Source: an uncultured Opitutia bacterium
Lineage (GTDB): Bacteria; Verrucomicrobiota; Verrucomicrobiia; Opitutales; Opitutaceae
NCBI GenBank assembly: GCA_903839035.1
Contig: CAIMAQ010000070.1
Coordinates: 1-51,237 of the forward strand
Direction of reading: 5' to 3'
DNA length: 51,237 nucleotides
In this document: one piece after another, positions 1-43,417 of the stretch
Position numbering within the stretch: position 1 is the first letter of the stretch
Layout of the letters: every line of letters starts with the position of its first letter
The notes under the pieces: generated by a model
The model's input: only the letters and a program-made list of their open reading frames with translations
The model's database searches: none
What the model was told of the DNA's origin: nothing
Made by a program: the position numbers and the translations under genes

Positions 1-2118
1 CGTACTGACCGGCACCGGCGTCAGATCGAAGTCGAACTCCCTCACCCTCGCGCCGCTGCGGCCGTCGAGGCTGATGTGCACGCTCTTCGGCATGTCCTTC
101 TCCTTGTCGGCGATGTCGAGGTAGATGAGCTTGGATCCTTCGCTCTTCGCCAGGGGATAGAGTTTGTCCCGGCTCAGGCCGCCGATCTGGAACTTCTTCG
201 CGTACGATTTTCCCTCCGGGCCGTCCCGGTAGATCAGCGTGTAGAACTTCGTGTCGCCTTCCTTCGGCCAGATTGAGACGCAACGGATGTCGCGGCCCAT
301 GAAGGTCTTGTCGGCCACCTTCGTGACCTTCAGCGACGCGTCACCCATGATCGTCAGCACGCTGTCCAGGATCGTGCACTCGGTCACGAACTCGTGCTGG
401 CGCCAGTTCAGGCCGATGAAGCCGTCCTCGCGGTTCACATACAGGCGCTGGTTGGCCGACACGACCGCCGACGCGTCAATCTGCTCGATCTCGTCGTAGC
501 TGGTCTTCCGCTTGATGCCCTTGCCGTACTTTTCCTGCAGCATCTCGAACCACGCGATCGCGTACTCGGTGAGCTTCTTGAGGTTGGCCTTCGTCTCCTT
601 GATCCCCTCCTCGATCTTCGCCATGGCCTCGTCGGCCTGGAAGCGGTTGTAGGCGGAGATGCGCTTGATGCGGATCTCGGTCAGCCGGACGATGTCGTCG
701 TCCGTCACCTCGCGGCGGAGTTGCTTGAGAAACGGCTTCAGGCCGCCGCGGATCTCGGCGAGCACGCTGTCCCAGGTCTTCGACTTCTCGATCAGCCGGT
801 AGATGCGCTCCTCGATGAAAATGCGCTCAAGCGAGTCCCAGTGCCACTGTTGCTCCAGCTCGGCCAACTTGATCTCCAACTCGCGTTTGAGAAGTTCCTT
901 CGTGGCTTCCGCGCTCGTTTTGAGGATGTCGCGGACACCGACAAACTGCGGCTTGTCGGCGCCGGTCTTGGCATTGCGCACGATGACGCACGCCGCCGGG
1001 TTGAGCTGCACCTGGCAGCTGGTGAACACGTATAGCTGCTGGATGACCTTGTCGGGCTCCGCGCCCTGCGGCAGGTGCACAAGGATCTCGACCTTGTCGG
1101 CCGTGTTGTCGTCCACGTGCTTGACCTTGATCTTGCCCTTCGCGTTGGCCGCGAGGATCGACTCGATCAGCGACTCGGTGGTGACGCCGTAGGGCAGCTC
1201 GGTGATGGCGAGGAGGTATTTGGAACGCTCCTCGATCTTCGCACGGACCTTCACCTTGCCGCCACGCTCGCCGTCGTTGTATTCCGCGAAGTCGGCGGTG
1301 CCGCCCGTGGGAAAATCCGGGAGGATGCGGAAGGTTTTCCCCTGCAGGTGGTTGATGGCCGCGCGGCAGAGGTCGTTGAAGTTGTGCGGGAGGATCTTGG
1401 TCGAGAGGCCGACGGCGATGCCGTCCGCGCCCTCGAGGAGGACGATCGGGAACTTGGCCGGGAGCGTGATCGGCTCCTTGTTGCGGCCGTCGTAGCTCAG
1501 CTGCCAGCTCGTGGTCTTCGGGTTGAAGAGCACGTCCTTGGCGAAGTTCGTCAGGCGGGCCTCGATGTAACGGGGCGCGGCGGCATCGTCGCCGGTGAGC
1601 ACGTTGCCGTAGTTGCCCTGCGGCTCGATGAGCCACGCGCGCTGGCCGATGGCCACGAGCGCGGCGCCGATGGAGGCATCGCCGTGCGGGTGGAGCTTCA
1701 TCGTCGCACCGACGACGTTGGCGACCTTGTGGAAACGGCCGTCGTCCATGTCCCAGAGCGTGTGCAGCACCCGGCGCTGCACGGGCTTCAGGCCGTCGTC
1801 GATGTGCGGGACGGCGCGGTCGAGGATGACGTAGCTCGCGTAGTCGAGAAACCAGTTGCGGTAGGCGGCCGCGAGGGGCGCCGGGTCATCCTGGACCTTC
1901 TGGCCCTTCTTGCGCTGCGGAGGCGAAACCGCCGCGTCGCCGGCGGCCGGGCCCGGGGCGATGGGCGATGGGCGAGAGGGTTCGGAGGCCGCTGGGCCAA
2001 GTGCGGAGGTCTTGCCCATCGCCTCTGGCCCCTTGCCCATTGCCTCTTGGGCTGGCGCATCGCCGCCCAACGGGAGCTCCGCCTGGTCGCTTTTCTTGGA
2101 GGATTTCTTCTTGGCCAT
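1..2118 (-). CDS. parC: Type IIA DNA topoisomerase subunit A (ParC/GyrA-like), 3' end beyond the window
   Basis: This is the DNA-cleaving A subunit of a type II topoisomerase, partner of the ParE-like protein encoded upstream. The start codon is at 2118, and 706 codons are visible before the reading frame leaves the window at base 1. Residues 86-110 carry the conserved entry into the breakage-reunion domain (FLDYASYVILDRAVPHIDDG). EPQGNYG at 165-171 is followed by DDAAAPRYIEARL, whose Tyr184 matches the catalytic tyrosine. About 80 residues of Lys-, Ala- and Pro-rich linker precede the domain. Part of that linker (residues about 26-56) is encoded by repeated GGCGATGGGC-type words in both orientations. 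Verrucomicrobiota may carry a separate gyrase, so ParC is preferred over GyrA from the pairing with ParE, although subtype cannot be settled without the C-terminal domain. Confidence 0.9.
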   Translation of the reverse strand, partial: MAKKKSSKKSDQAELPLGGDAPAQEAMGKGPEAMGKTSALGPAASEPSRPSPIAPGPAAGDAAVSPPQRKKGQKVQDDPAPLAAAYRNWFLDYASYVILDRAVPHIDDGLKPVQRRVLHTLWDMDDGRFHKVANVVGATMKLHPHGDASIGAALVAIGQRAWLIEPQGNYGNVLTGDDAAAPRYIEARLTNFAKDVLFNPKTTSWQLSYDGRNKEPITLPAKFPIVLLEGADGIAVGLSTKILPHNFNDLCRAAINHLQGKTFRILPDFPTGGTADFAEYNDGERGGKVKVRAKIEERSKYLLAITELPYGVTTESLIESILAANAKGKIKVKHVDDNTADKVEILVHLPQGAEPDKVIQQLYVFTSCQVQLNPAACVIVRNAKTGADKPQFVGVRDILKTSAEATKELLKRELEIKLAELEQQWHWDSLERIFIEERIYRLIEKSKTWDSVLAEIRGGLKPFLKQLRREVTDDDIVRLTEIRIKRISAYNRFQADEAMAKIEEGIKETKANLKKLTEYAIAWFEMLQEKYGKGIKRKTSYDEIEQIDASAVVSANQRLYVNREDGFIGLNWRQHEFVTECTILDSVLTIMGDASLKVTKVADKTFMGRDIRCVSIWPKEGDTKFYTLIYRDGPEGKSYAKKFQIGGLSRDKLYPLAKSEGSKLIYLDIADKEKDMPKSVHISLDGRSGARVREFDFDLTPVPVST

Positions 2119-2136: not shown

Positions 2137-2165
2137 TTTCACGCAGAGGCGCAGAGACGCGGAGA
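2137..2165. repeat. Period-8 purine-rich repeat arm (CGCAGAGA family), left side of the GxxExxY gene
   Basis: The arm reads TTTCACGCAGAGGCGCAGAG then ACGCGGAGA, an eight-base word repeated with small changes. It lies between the parC start and the GxxExxY stop. It faces an inverted copy at 2666-2693, so the pair encloses the whole GxxExxY gene. Confidence 0.85.
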
Positions 2166-2170
2166 GTGGA

Positions 2171-2578
2171 TTAAAAATCGCTTACGATGCGTTTGACTCC
2201 ATCTTTGAGCAACGGGGCGCCAAAATTGATCAGCAGACCGAGGCGGCAATCCATCAACCTGAGGTAGGTCAGCAGCTGCTTGCCATGGACCGGTGCCATG
2301 GTCTCGACGGACTTAAGCTCTACAATCACGGATTTCTCCACGATCAGATCAGCGCGGAAACCCTCCTCGAAGCGAATGTCGTCATAGGTAATCGGCACCG
2401 GCACCTGGCGTTCCACGGTCAGGCCGCGCTTTTCGAGTTCATAGGCCAGTACACGCTCATAAACTGACTCAAGCAGCCCGGGTCCCAGCCGCATGTGAAC
2501 ATGAACCGCCGCATCAACGATCTGCCCCGAAGTGTTATTCAGATCCCTCTGCGCCTCCCCGTCTCCGCGTGAGTCCAT
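2171..2578 (-). CDS. GxxExxY family protein (PD-(D/E)XK nuclease-like)
   Basis: The 135-residue protein carries the family signature GLLESVY at residues 34-40. Asp77 in RADLIVE and the Glu87-x-Lys89 pair in IVELKSVE have the spacing of a PD-(D/E)XK nuclease core (Pfam PDDEXK_3). The biological role of the family is unknown. I chose ATG 2576-2578 because the longer open frame upstream only translates period-8 repeat sequence. The gene interrupts an otherwise simple parE-parC arrangement. Inverted repeats of one family lie on both sides, and a second facing pair flanks its start codon. This suggests that it arrived as a cassette, but no transposase is present and mobility is inference. Confidence 0.85.
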   Translation of the reverse strand: MDSRGDGEAQRDLNNTSGQIVDAAVHVHMRLGPGLLESVYERVLAYELEKRGLTVERQVPVPITYDDIRFEEGFRADLIVEKSVIVELKSVETMAPVHGKQLLTYLRLMDCRLGLLINFGAPLLKDGVKRIVSDF

Positions 2579-2693
2579 GGGGTTCACGCAGAGACGCGGA
2601 GGCGCGGAGATGGAGGCGGAGCCCGTAAAAAAACGGCAACGATCTGATCCGAAAACCCATTCAGGTCTCTGCGTCTCTGCGTCTCGGCGTGAG
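2549..2693. repeat. Cluster of facing CGCAGAGA-family arms at the GxxExxY start and parE stop
   Basis: Three arms are visible. CTGCGCCTCCCCGTCTCCGC at 2549-2568 faces TTCACGCAGAGACGCGGAGG near 2583-2602, with the GxxExxY start codon in the short loop between them. A third arm at 2666-2693 (TCTCTGCGTCTCTGCGTCTC then GGCGTGAG) lies ten bases from the parE stop and is inverted relative to the arm at 2137-2165. The pairs could form stem-loops in RNA. Confidence 0.8.
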
Positions 2694-2703
2694 CTCATCA
2701 TAA

Positions 2704-4545
2704 TCACGCCTCGATCAGGTCCTTCTCGACCTTGAGGTTGTCGATGATGAAGTCCTGCCGCTCCGGGGTGTTCTTGCCCATGAAGAACGAGAGCAATTCA
2801 TCGCTGCTGTAGAGGTGGTGGAGATTCACCGGGTCGAGGCGGATGTTCTCGCCGATGAAGTCCTTGAACTCGCCGGCGGAGATTTCACCGAGGCCCTTGA
2901 AGCGCGTGATCTCGTGCGTGGCGCCGAGCTCGGCCACCGCGGCCTGCTTCTCGGCCTCGGAGTAGCAATACATCGTCTTCTTCTTGTTCCGCACGCGGAA
3001 GAGCGGCGTGTCCAGGATGAAGAGGTGGTTGTTGCGGATGAGATCGGGGAAAAACTGCAGAAAAAACGAGATCAGCAGCAGGCGGATGTGCATGCCGTCC
3101 ACGTCGGCGTCGGTCGCGATGACAACCTTGTTGTAGCGCAGGCTGTCGAGCCCCTCCTCGATGTTGAGGGCGGACTGGAGCAGGTGGAATTCCTCGTTCT
3201 CGTAGATGACCTTCTTCGACAGGCCGTAGGTGTTGAGCGGCTTGCCCTTCAGCGCGAAGACCGCCTGCGTCTGCACGTCGCGCGTGGCGGTGAGCGAACC
3301 GGCGGCGGAGTCGCCCTCGACGATGAACAGCGTGCTCTCCTCGGCGCGCTCGTTGCGGTCACCGAGATGCAGACGGCAGTCGCGGAGCTTGCGGTTGTGC
3401 AGGGAGGCCTTTTTCGCGCGGTCGCGGGCGAGATTGCGGATGCCGGCGAGCTCCTTGCGCTCCAGTTCGCTCTCCTCGATGCGTGACTTGATGCGGTCGG
3501 CGGTCTCCTTGTTCTTGTGCAGGTAGCCGTCGAGCGACTGCTGCACGAACTTGCCGATGAATTCCTTGATCGTCAGGCCGCCCGGCGCGATCTCGCTGGA
3601 GCCCAGCTTGGTCTTGGTCTGCGACTCGAACACCGGCTCCTGCACGCGGACGGAGATGGCGGCGAAGATGGACTGGCGGACGTCGGCGGCGTCGTAGTCC
3701 TTCTTGAAAAAATTGCGGACGGTCTCGACGAGCGCCTCGCGGAAGGCCGCGAGGTGCGTGCCGCCCATCGTGGTGTGCTGGCCGTTGACGAAGGAGAAGT
3801 ACTCCTCGCCGTAGTGCGCACCGTGGGTGAAGGCGATTTCGATGTCCTCGCCCTCGAGGTGGATCACCGGGTAGAGCGGCTCGCCGCTGAGCTCCTTTTC
3901 GAGCAGGTCCTTCAGGCCGTGCTCCGACCTGAACGCCTTGCCGTTGAACGTGAGGGTGAGCCCGCGGTTGAGGAAGGCGTAGTTCCAGAGCATGTCCTCG
4001 ATGAACTCCGCGCGGAACTTGAAATCCTTGCCGAACAGCGTCTCGTCCGGCGTGAACTCGATGAGGGTGCCGTTGCGCTCGTCGGACTTGGTGACCTTGT
4101 AGTCCTTCTTCAGCTTGCCCTTCTCGAACTCGACCACCTTGGTGTCGCCCTCGCGCACGGACTGCGCGCGGAAGCTGGAGGAGAGGGCGTTGACGGCCTT
4201 CTGGCCGACGCCGTTGAGGCCGACGGATTTCTGGAAGGTCTGGCTGTCGTACTTGGCGCCGGTGTTGATGATCGAGACGCAGTCGATGAGCTTGCCGAGC
4301 GGGATGCCGCGGCCGTAGTCGCGCACGCGGAGGGTGCGCTCGGTCAGTTCGATCTCGATCTTCTTGCCCTGCCCCATCGCGAATTCGTCGATGGAGTTGT
4401 CGATGGTCTCCTTGAGCAGGACGTAGATGCCGTCCTCGGCGTGGGTGCCGTTGCCGAGGCGCCCGATGTACATGCCGGGACGCAGGCGGATGTGCTCGAG
4501 GGACGAGAGGGTCTTGATGCTGGCTTCGGTGTAAGCTTGGGCCAT
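2704..4545 (-). CDS. parE: Type IIA DNA topoisomerase subunit B (ParE-like)
   Basis: This is the ATPase subunit of a type II topoisomerase (613 residues, close to the 630 of E. coli ParE). The GHKL ATP site is complete: ETIDNSID at 46-53 with catalytic Glu46, RDYGRG at 75-80 and GLNGVG at 109-114. The TOPRIM domain shows EGDSAAGS at 410-417 and the metal-binding DADVDG at 479-484. The N-terminus [20 protein letters not shown] matches the usual start of the family, so the start is secure. It lies upstream of the parC-like gene in the same direction, with the GxxExxY gene between them, and the two subunits should form an A2B2 enzyme. ParE rather than GyrB is suggested by the length and the lack of a GyrB-type insertion. 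Confidence 0.93.
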
Positions 4546-4713: not shown

Positions 4714-5376
4714 ATGAAAATCACCTATTACCTGGAGGTCCTTTCATCGTGGTGCACGTGGGTCGAACCCACCTGGGACGCGCTCAAGGAGCGGTATGCG
4801 GGACGCGCCGAGTTCGAGTGGAAAATCGCGCTGATGAACCCGGGCGACTTCCCGGGGTCGCGCGAACAGTGCGATTGGTTTTACCGCCGCAGCGGCGGGA
4901 CAGTGATGGGCTCGCCGTTCATGCTGAACTCCGGCTGGTTCGAGGCGTCCCGCAAGGGCGTGTATCACGCGCCCAACCTGGTCGCCGAGGCTGGGCGGGA
5001 TTTTGGCTTTTCCGGTGACGAACTTCGCCGGGCGATCGCCCACGCCGCCGTGCGCGAAGGCAAGAAGGTCGGCGACATGGCCGTGGCGGTCGCGGTGGCG
5101 GCCAAGGCCGGCCGGCTCAACCCGAAGAAACTCCGGGCCGCGGCCGAATCCCCCGCGGTGCTGGCACGCGTCCAGGCGAGCACGCAGGAGTTCCACGCCC
5201 ACCAGATCAACCAGCGCCCCGCGTTTATCCTCACCGATGCCATCGGGGACAAAGCTGTGTTTTCCGGCCTCGTGCGCCCCGAACCCCTCATCGCCACGAT
5301 CGACAGCATGCTCAGCGACACCGCCGCCTACGCCGCCCACGCCGCGCACCACAATCCATATGGGGTCAGCCCCTAA
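4714..5376 (+). CDS. DsbA-family thioredoxin-fold protein (2-hydroxychromene-2-carboxylate isomerase-like)
   Basis: The 220-residue protein begins [20 protein letters not shown], typical of the DsbA/HCCA isomerase/FrnE superfamily. A single Cys in SSWCTW replaces the CxxC of true disulfide oxidases, so isomerase or glutathione-type chemistry is more likely than thiol oxidation. An all-alpha insertion and a C-terminal thioredoxin half with the cis-proline segment QRPAFIL follow. There is no signal peptide. I chose ATG 4714, where similarity to the fold begins. The last four residues (GVSP) and the TAA stop are encoded by the left terminal repeat of the RAYT element, so the native C-terminus was probably replaced or trimmed. 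The exact substrate is unknown. Confidence 0.75.
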
Positions 5377-6411
5377 CTCTTGTGGTCAGCCTGTTGTTTA
5401 CAAGTTGTGCTTCAGGTCTTTGTGATTTTTTAAGCTCACCGACGTAGCGGCTAACGGCATCGGGTGGCCCCATGCCCAGGTGGTCGGTTAGCCAGCGGTT
5501 GCTGACACTACTGCGCTGCTTCAGCCAGGCGGCCACCGCAATTTTCCACGGCGCGGACTTGGGCTCCGCATGGGCCATCGCCAGATCGCGCTCCAAGGTG
5601 CGCAGGGCCCGGTCGAGGAGTTTCTTCCACTCGATCCGGTTGATTTCCCCGATCTCCGTGCCGCCCCAATCCTGGGCATTGGGCATGCGCTTGAACTTGC
5701 CCAGCAGGTTTTTCTGGAAGGCGTCGCCGCCGTACACCCAGCCGCGGCTCATGCGCTCAAAGGCCGCGTCCTTCTGCCGGCCTTCGTCCGCCATCAGCCA
5801 CGCGAGATGGTCGTGATAGGTTCGCCAGCCTTGCGGCGTGTCGGTGAGCCCGCCCTTCTCCTGCAACCAAGCCTCACAGAGGAGAAATGGCGGACGGGCG
5901 GCTGTGTCCCGCAGGAAATAACGGTAACTCGACCAGCGGAATTGCGCGAGCTGGTCCAGCGTCACGACCTTGGCCCGCACGGGATTGAGATGGATGTAAT
6001 CAACCAGCTGCGCCAGGTGCCGGCCGGGTTCCACGAGGATGGCCTGGTAGCGTCCCTGAAACGCGCGGCCATGCTCCCCGCGGAAACGGTTGAAGCGGTT
6101 CCCAAACGTGCTCTGCAGCCAGTGCACACCCGTCACCAGGTTTCCCTGCGGCGTCTCCACCGCGAGGTGATAGTGATTCCGCATCAGACAGAACGCATGC
6201 AGCCGCCAGCCCATGCGCTCGCAGGTTTGAAACAGGCACTCGATAAACGCCTGCGCCGCCCCGGCGGAATCGAACAGATCCGCCTTATAATTGCCCCGGT
6301 TCAGTACGTGGTAAATCGCACCGGTAAACTCTATGCGGGGCTTGCGTGCCATAAATAACTCACATCATGCCACTAGCATAAGTACAACCACAAAGGTTAG
6401 GGGCTGACCCC
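5362..6411. mobile_element. RAYT element bounded by 25-base terminal inverted repeats
   Basis: The left end (5362-5386) reads GGGGTCAGCCCCTAACTCTT then GTGGT. The right end (6387-6411) is its inverse with 23 of 25 bases identical. The element carries one gene, a REP-associated tyrosine transposase. It sits between two convergent genes, and both of them, as well as the transposase, take their stop codons from the terminal repeats. A third terminal-repeat copy lies at 50985-51009 without a transposase. Each end contains the self-complementary word GGGGCTGACCCC, or nearly so, as expected of a REP hairpin recognised by Y1 transposases. Confidence 0.8.
5366..6352 (-). CDS. REP-associated tyrosine transposase (Y1_Tnp/RAYT)
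   Basis: The protein has 328 residues. Its N-terminal Y1 domain begins MARKPRIEFTGAIYHVLNRG, carries the metal-binding HUH motif in MRNHYHLAVE (residues 57-66) and the likely nucleophile Tyr102 in FQGRYQAILVE, followed by IHLNPVRAKVV, a hallmark of RAYTs. About 200 residues follow the catalytic domain, including a C-terminal helical region (about 265-310) that resembles a DNA-binding domain. RAYTs nick single-stranded DNA at REP hairpins and are usually domesticated as single copies. The frame is intact and all key residues are present, so the enzyme may be active. Its stop codon lies in the left terminal repeat and overlaps the end of the DsbA-like gene on the other strand by 11 bases. Confidence 0.9.
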   Translation of the reverse strand: MARKPRIEFTGAIYHVLNRGNYKADLFDSAGAAQAFIECLFQTCERMGWRLHAFCLMRNHYHLAVETPQGNLVTGVHWLQSTFGNRFNRFRGEHGRAFQGRYQAILVEPGRHLAQLVDYIHLNPVRAKVVTLDQLAQFRWSSYRYFLRDTAARPPFLLCEAWLQEKGGLTDTPQGWRTYHDHLAWLMADEGRQKDAAFERMSRGWVYGGDAFQKNLLGKFKRMPNAQDWGGTEIGEINRIEWKKLLDRALRTLERDLAMAHAEPKSAPWKIAVAAWLKQRSSVSNRWLTDHLGMGPPDAVSRYVGELKKSQRPEAQLVNNRLTTRVRG

Positions 6412-41188: not shown

Positions 41189-41200
41189 GCCGGATTGGGC

Positions 41201-41265
41201 CTCACGCCGAGGCGCCGAGTCGCAGAGCCCGGATCAAACTCGGCATCTTTGCGCCTCCGCGTGAG
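41201..41265. repeat. Facing CGCAGAGA-family arms, copy 3
   Basis: CTCACGCCGAGGCGCCGAGT then CGCAGAG (41201-41227) faces CTTTGCGCCTCCGCGTGAG (41247-41265). It is the same family as the repeats around the GxxExxY gene but carries no gene. It could act as a hairpin at the end of the hydroxylase transcript. Confidence 0.8.
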
Positions 41266-43314: not shown

Positions 43315-43417
43315 CCACGGAACCCACCGATCACACGGAATGACTGCCCTCATTTTTTCGCAGGACGAGTGAGTTTCGTGCTCCCGATCTTTTCCGTGTA
43401 GTCGGTGTGTTCCGTGG
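43315..43417. repeat. Facing CCACGGAAC-family repeat arms
   Basis: The left arm (43315-43340) reads CCACGGAACCCACCGATCAC then ACGGAA. The right arm (43392-43417) is its inverse with 23 of 26 bases matching. CACGGAA recurs with a nine-base rhythm. A lone partial copy (CCCACGGAACCCACG) lies near 49735. Confidence 0.85.

Follow-up and report, generated by a model that had tools for sequence, protein, structure and literature searches.

A GxxExxY gene paired with its own inverted repeat arms appears to be a slow mobile element of a type not yet described. In the window, a stretch of 51,237 nucleotides from an uncultured Opitutia bacterium, positions 2138-2697 hold two adjacent units, a GxxExxY gene enclosed by inverted CGCRGAGR arms and a palindrome without the gene, and this observation is confirmed and reaches well past the window. 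We regard it as probable that the GxxExxY nuclease and its cognate inverted arms form a minimal mobile unit, about 440-500 bp long and slow to move, that is accompanied by dispersed palindromes and resembles RAYT/REPIN systems, with an unrelated enzyme.

The unit between the topoisomerase genes and its protein

The GxxExxY gene, a member of the PD-(D/E)XK nuclease family, occupies 2171..2578 on the minus strand. Downstream of the unit lies a parC-like gene for a topoisomerase/gyrase A-type subunit (1..2118, minus strand; PF00521), which runs off the window edge, and upstream a parE-like gene for the B-type subunit (2704..4545, minus strand; PF00204, PF01751 and PF02518). The initial annotation of a GxxExxY gene inside a topoisomerase pair is thus borne out, with scores of 150.4 bits for TIGR04256 (curated cut-off 35) and 144.6 bits for PF13366. 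The reading frame stays open upstream as far as 2707 (ORF 2171-2707, minus strand). Translation probably begins at an ATG in frame at 2578-2576 and would end at the stop at 2171; since this ATG lies just beyond the inner arm, the first residues (MDSRGDGEAQR) would be encoded by the arm itself.

On the 3' side of the gene, the arm TTCACGCAGAGGCGCAGAGACGCGGAGA (2138..2165, plus strand) consists of three CRCNRAG units and faces the 5' arm at 2547..2572 (minus strand). A ten-base spacer containing the ATG (2573..2582) separates this unit from the second one, a gene-less palindrome of about 115 bp (2583..2697) with facing arms at 2583-2610 and 2666-2697. The second unit retains a degenerate remnant of the 5' end of the gene at 2637-2670 (direct repeat 2515-2548 / 2637-2670, 74%), and its body is homologous at other loci, namely on contig C16 of G000 and at loci in G001 and G011. 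The facing arms that had been noted around the gene are therefore present, with the correction that the enclosing pair seen earlier (2138 to 2697) spans two units; likewise, the arms of the facing pair described at the start codon exist, as the inner arms of the two units, gene-bearing and gene-less, meeting at their junction. Two further gene-less palindromes are found in the window: one with CRCNRAG-like units at 41200..41265, and one with A-type units (CCACGGAA..ACACGGAA) at 43315..43417 that resembles the arms around L002/L141, the second GxxExxY gene of this genome. For arm complementarity, 4000 random stretch pairs drawn from the window served as reference, with a 99.9% point of 13 and a maximum of 15. 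Two arm pairs exceed this maximum, the outer pair at 22 and the pair of the gene-less unit at 19; the gene unit's own pair scores 14, inside it, which leaves the family-wide arm test as the basis of the case for the unit. The exact octamer CGCAGAGA is weakly over-represented in the window (6 occurrences vs 2.4 expected; 3 of 100 shuffles reach 6), and it is the inverted multi-unit layout, rather than the frequency of this octamer, that is the notable feature. A protein resembling Y1_Tnp and REP-associated transposases is encoded near the unit at 5366-6352 (minus strand; PF01797, 40.8 bits; NF047646, 58 bits at a cut-off of 80).

The catalytic residues are nearly invariant among 208 GxxExxY proteins: the aspartate is present in 207, its acidic partner is a glutamate in 189 and an aspartate in 18, and the lysine of ExK is kept in 206. 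Together with the restriction-endonuclease-like fold, these D ... (E/D)xK residues place the protein in the PD-(D/E)XK superfamily. The best solved match of the AlphaFold2 model (pLDDT 94.8) is 4ic1 (SSO0001, a Cas4 protein; Z 9.6, rmsd 3.8, 101 residues aligned), followed by 3ijm (Z 8.5), BpuSI (3s1s, Z 8.1), the Wolbachia CinB complex (7esz, Z 8.0), BamHI (Z 7.4) and Hjc (1gef, Z 7.0, rmsd 3.4, 87 aligned), where a Z below 8 may reflect a common arrangement and absence from the match list does not exclude a fold family. Foldseek gave no match at E <=0.001 and a sequence search of the PDB none at E 1. The predicted fold says nuclease and nothing more specific, and the likeness to Cas4, restriction enzymes and Hjc is one of fold only. 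In Pfam and NCBIfam at E 0.001, the window protein matches PF13366 and TIGR04256 only, with no transposase match.

Repeat arms and protein clades across the family

A profile scan of genome contigs yielded 80 loci from Planctomycetota, Bacteroidota, Chloroflexota, Cyanobacteria, Acidobacteriota, proteobacterial classes and archaea, among others (groups taken from record titles), of which 72 remained once 8 at contig ends were removed; 77 further Verrucomicrobiota places are part of a gene list from 79 genomes. Altogether, 208 of 229 genes were usable, after 4 without an intact domain, 12 at contig ends and 5 duplicates had been left out; 69 of them come from the multi-phylum scan and 139 from Verrucomicrobiota searches, and one is archaeal (L157). 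The arm test takes the best inverted match between the 250 bp upstream of the domain and the 250 bp after the stop, with a threshold score of 16. At this threshold, arms flank 162/208 GxxExxY genes and 11/216 neighbouring genes in the same loci, while swapped pairs reach it in 49/1245 cases and shuffles in 3/1040. Arms accompany 52/69 of the scan genes and 110/139 of those from the Verrucomicrobiota searches, leaving 46 of the 208 genes without them at score 16. The repeats that the initial annotation placed near GxxExxY genes of other genomes are thereby clearly enriched. Among the 140 genes with a score of at least 16 and arms of at most 60 bp, the left arm ends a median of 37.5 nt before the domain, the right arm starts a median of 9.5 nt past the stop, and 127 have a left arm whose inward strand is rich in purines.

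The arm units follow the form C-R-C-N-R-A-x at a period of 8-10. The CGCAGAGA family to which the repeats had been assigned proved too narrow a signature once arms were listed by clade, and it was dropped: repeats are present around the genes, not solely of the CGCAGAGA kind, and each protein clade has its own units. In tree order, the arms appear clade-specific, with CRCNRAG in the LGPGLLES clade, CRCNRAT in the EKPYENAL clade and CRCGRAA in the GCGFLE..VYQEC clade; further units in this list are CAGGAT, AACGAAT, CGCGGAA/AGGAAA and CGCTTAA. A longer GxxExxY subfamily with open frames of about 260-276 aa (L371, L373, L374, L376, L377, L378 and L379) mostly carries arms of its own, such as ACAAAATCA or GCAGAATCATT, with none at threshold in L377.

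Assignment to the G, T or A type was possible for 109 of the 208 genes (74 G, 24 T and 11 A). On the protein tree, the arm type needs 7 changes, compared with a mean of 32.1 and a minimum of 27 in 300 shuffles of the labels; for the Verrucomicrobiota searches alone, 6 changes stand against a shuffled 27.4 (minimum 20). The scan, whose peptide pattern favours one clade, was typed as 45 G and 1 T, so that across phyla the constancy of the G type alone was seen and the contrast between types was tested almost only within Verrucomicrobiota. Pairs of genes from different genomes are alike in arm type in 96% of cases at 50-60% protein identity and in 12% at 30-40%. Within genomes, 14 of 51 pairs share a type (L365-L381, 3 of which are typed, are excluded from this count) and G049 has all three types, which means that host taxonomy does not explain the arm type. 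Each of the four GxxExxY loci in the window's genome has arms of a different kind; besides the locus in the window they are L141, L003, which contains an internal stop, and L004. The arm unit is thus shown to follow the GxxExxY protein clade.

The arms are also more numerous where the gene is present. Among 79 Verrucomicrobiota genomes, 33 are gene-positive at E 1e-12 and 46 gene-negative; with the genes' own arms included, 538 T-type arms were counted in 27/33 gene-positive genomes vs 2 in 2/46 gene-negative ones, and 406 A-type arms in 24/33 vs 21 in 16/46, the reversed-pattern control being 0 for T and showing, for A, a stray 1 in 9 genomes. For G-type arms the search was limited to period 8; 22 gene-positive genomes have them, as do the gene-negative G081 (15) and G084 (1), and this evidence is weaker because the reversed control is high (288 vs 46 in G015; 20 vs 10 in G000). 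No GxxExxY gene was detected in G081 or G084 even at E 0.01, and for the 15 arms of G081 a lost gene or an assembly gap is suggested. G015 shows a strong arm expansion, with 288 period-8 G-type and 36 T-type arms, several of the listed places lying near contig ends. At least five T arms are present in 14/15 genomes with a T-clade gene vs 5/18 other gene-positive genomes (p 1.6e-4), and at least five A arms in 9/11 with an A-clade gene vs 5/22 others (p 0.0019); crosswise, A arms show no association with the T clade (p 0.73) and T arms lean to A-clade genomes (p 0.05), all of these being raw p-values that overstate independence by ignoring kinship, because the gene-negative genomes cluster in few families. 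The 5/18 and 5/22 gene-positive genomes carry T or A arms yet no fetched gene of the matching clade, where the clade lists comprise the tree order plus L004, and unfetched genes (e.g. one in G046) are absent from them. As shown by these counts, T and A arms are concentrated in gene-positive genomes and tend to match the clade that is present.

Gene-less palindromes and the history of the units

Palindromes that lack the gene are scattered through the same genomes. In the window's genome, the three-unit G-type pattern has 27 matches vs 4 for the reversed control, nearly all of them in hairpins as judged by eye. Under a strict definition, 274 kb chosen regardless of repeats contain 3 palindromes (one G, one T and one A) and 20 shuffled sets contain 0; single arrays in the same 274 kb are only about two-fold above shuffles. 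Gene-less palindromes avoid coding sequence: 6/19 lie deep inside a long open frame (any of six frames) vs 774/950 random points. One gene-less family has a homologous body at several unrelated loci in the window's genus. In addition, both the presence and the arm type of palindromes vary between species at orthologous intergenic sites. Two-sided changes that keep some stem pairing at such sites were counted in 18/471 cells vs 2/286 in slid alignments, a modest excess (11 sites; orthologs with >20% gaps in the stem skipped), and a covariation count over whole 260-nt folds was set aside, since it mixed in unrelated pairs. At the sites orthologous to L015 and L027, the arms drift to the genome-wide form (CGCRGAG in G000, CGCMAAG in G009) and the loops stay similar, hinting, by eye, at concerted change. 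In G049, T-type palindromes form tandem arrays with short repeated spacers between units (L425, L427 and L428), presumably comparable to BIME-like clusters. Dispersed palindromes of the window's genus at L233, L246, L252, L255 and L262 share a similar spacer, approximately AATTATGCTGTCCCATCNCCACCTGATGA, outside one arm or both, and this conserved spacer was counted against a mobile-unit reading. The conserved flanks of T-type palindromes in G015 were not used as part of a mobile unit; by eye they look like the start of a repeated gene family.

The ParE-ParC interval was obtained from 11 same-genus genomes, including the window's own; a twelfth, G003, has no ParE match. Four of the 11 hold the GxxExxY gene at this site (G000, G001, G010 and G008), four have gene-less palindromes only (G007, G009 and G011, plus a decayed one in G006), and in the interval of G002, G004 and G005 no gene or palindrome was recognised. 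The order in G001 is palindrome-gene-palindrome, the third unit being absent from G000, and in G007 the left arm of the first palindrome is, by eye, apparently fused to the body of the third unit; the layouts of G007 and G000 look as recombination between arms would give. The window gene has a dN/dS of 0.09 against G010 and 0.11 against G008, and gene pairs at dS 0.5-1.2 range from 0.07 to 0.11, and G000/G001, a close pair with dS 0.06, has 0.39; the gene is under purifying selection. Because it is kept in 4/11 congeners, the window copy is no fresh insertion, and a recent insertion at parE-parC is ruled out by four genomes holding the gene at the same site at dS up to 1.2. The unit at this locus is old, vertical and eroding. 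The initial annotation had named vertical conservation throughout the family as an argument against mobility, and this applies by half: four of 11 genomes keep the gene, with a dN/dS of about 0.1 in the more distant pairs, and the other seven have either gene-less palindromes only or nothing recognised.

Movement was seen elsewhere. Among 11 gene pairs at a nucleotide identity of at least 78%, ten share their flanks and are vertical. The eleventh, L281 (G043) and L287 (G040), comes from two species of one genus and combines a core that is 89% identical with unrelated flanks; the homology runs from outer arm tip to outer arm tip, giving units of 499 and 497 bp. In this sole relocated pair no target-site duplication is visible, its flanks hold no former palindrome by eye, and they match no other fetched locus apart from one weak match of 70 bases. 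This one case gives the clearest indication that the moving entity is the arm-to-arm unit, either within a genome or by transfer. The proposal of a mobile unit, initially made for the window copy, which is vertical, is partly supported, through the sharp-ended relocation at L281/L287. Carriage on plasmids or phages was considered and rejected, with matches in 8/72,556 plasmid records and 0/50,697 phage records (one query, L126, E 1e-5).

Proposed mechanism, rival explanations and known systems

In the proposed mechanism, the GxxExxY protein, probably in dimeric or multimeric form, would recognise the repeated arm units, perhaps where single-stranded DNA exposes a hairpin, and would cut at or near the arm tips, after which host repair or replication would finish the insertion at intergenic sites. 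Internal deletion would give rise to gene-less palindromes that are moved in trans, and the population would persist mainly by descent, with the slow turnover of RAYT/REPIN. We infer both the action of the protein on the arms (binding and cutting) and transposition itself.

An unlikely alternative is that the arms are regulatory, the protein or a pairing of the mRNA ends controlling the gene and the scattered palindromes serving as regulated sites or terminators. Such a role would suit the closeness of the arms to the gene (a median of 9.5 nt past the stop among the 140 genes), the mostly intergenic position of the palindromes (6/19 deep in a long frame vs 774/950 random points) and the stems that keep some pairing at orthologous sites (18/471 cells vs 2/286 slid), but it does not account for the homology of the relocated unit ending at the arm tips, the gene remnants in a gene-less family or the tens of arms or more in some genomes. 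It also finds no support in PHROGs, where four GxxExxY proteins gave no match, in PADLOC, where the same number matched 0 families, or in Rfam, which has no match across 7 loci.

We give little credence to a reading in which GxxExxY is cargo and the palindromes owe their movement to another enzyme, for instance the Y1/RAYT-like transposase at 5366-6352. The Y1_Tnp protein is encoded 0.8 kb beyond the B-type gene, and hairpin-ended units are compatible with single-strand transposition; however, the arm type tracks the GxxExxY clade, which is unexpected for cargo, and the local Y1 protein stays under the REP-transposase cut-off (58 vs 80 bits). Equally improbable is homing or self-protection, in which unprotected DNA or palindromes lacking the gene are targets of the nuclease and repair copies the gene into the palindromes that were cut. 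One intergenic site does hold gene-bearing, gene-less or other-type palindromes in different species, and gene and gene-less units alternate at parE-parC, yet internal deletion or recombination between arms gives the same pattern, and no trace of a former palindrome is seen by eye beside L281 or L287. That GxxExxY is an ordinary gene near common terminator-like repeats, as its vertical descent at the window's locus might suggest, is extremely improbable and is contradicted by the 162/208 vs 11/216 genes with arms and by the match between clade and arms.

The slow mobile unit of nuclease and arms has its closest counterpart in RAYT (TnpA-REP) and REPINs. Both comprise a chromosomal enzyme gene flanked by its own palindromic repeats, dispersed non-autonomous hairpins between genes and co-evolution of enzyme and repeat, and both show more repeats where the gene is present, (near) absence from plasmids and mostly vertical inheritance. 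In the available text on RAYTs, enzyme groups co-evolve with their repeats, inheritance is single-copy and vertical without plasmids, and E. coli carrying the gene have more repeats (PMC8266576, PMC8049555). REPINs are described there as derived from repeats that once flanked an ancestral autonomous element (PMC3116915), and the foot of the repeat is reported to bear a GTAG or CGTC tag (PMC3733652). The differences lie in the enzyme, which is PD-(D/E)XK and not HUH Y1, in the multi-unit arms with a period of 8-10, in the several arm types per genome and in the distribution over many phyla and an archaeon. By its enzyme family, the GxxExxY unit is not a RAYT. With insertion sequences and MITEs it shares a single enzyme gene enclosed by inverted terminal repeats, the occurrence of copies with internal deletions and, in one pair (L281/L287), inverted repeats that end the homology at a new site; unlike them, it has no known transposase, and no target duplication is visible in the one relocated pair.

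Rpn proteins (PF04754) and TnsA of Tn7 are likewise PD-(D/E)XK nucleases, and TnsA is linked to DNA mobility and depends on a partner transposase, which the GxxExxY unit lacks. The GxxExxY protein differs from Rpn in matching PF13366 and not PF04754 in Pfam. Rpn proteins are linked to DNA mobility and phage defence in the text available (PMC5350276, PMC10327210). The window protein itself belongs to the TIGR04256/PF13366 family, for which the searched open-access literature, with subscription papers largely outside it, held neither a function nor a repeat association; the arm sequences were not found in the searched open-access literature either. In the accessible portion of PMC8934634, GxxExxY is named merely as a neighbouring domain; the term also occurs in PMC12085832, and PF13366 occurs in PMC9756366. 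One paper that combines PDDEXK, palindromic repeats, transposase and intergenic has, going by its excerpt, CRISPR systems as its subject (PMC10910872).

To our knowledge, and within the literature searched, no known kind of unit combines a lone PD-(D/E)XK enzyme with cognate arms. More broadly, we see a slightly better than even chance that a lone PD-(D/E)XK nuclease moves the arm-to-arm unit and, in trans, the gene-less hairpins, as an unrecognised class of mobile element across bacteria and archaea with a readable protein-to-repeat code of one unit per clade; our confidence in this cross-domain code is lower because the type code was tested almost only in Verrucomicrobiota. Should mobility fail in vitro, the fallback would be an unusual regulatory or self-recognition pair. 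If the reading holds, a widespread protein family would gain a function, the short-period palindromes dispersed in genomes would gain an origin, and prokaryotic genomes would be seen to hold a second, independent combination of an enzyme with a persistent hairpin population, based on a nuclease chemistry unlike that of RAYT/REPIN. The pairing of clade and unit would then be ready data for reading nuclease specificity.
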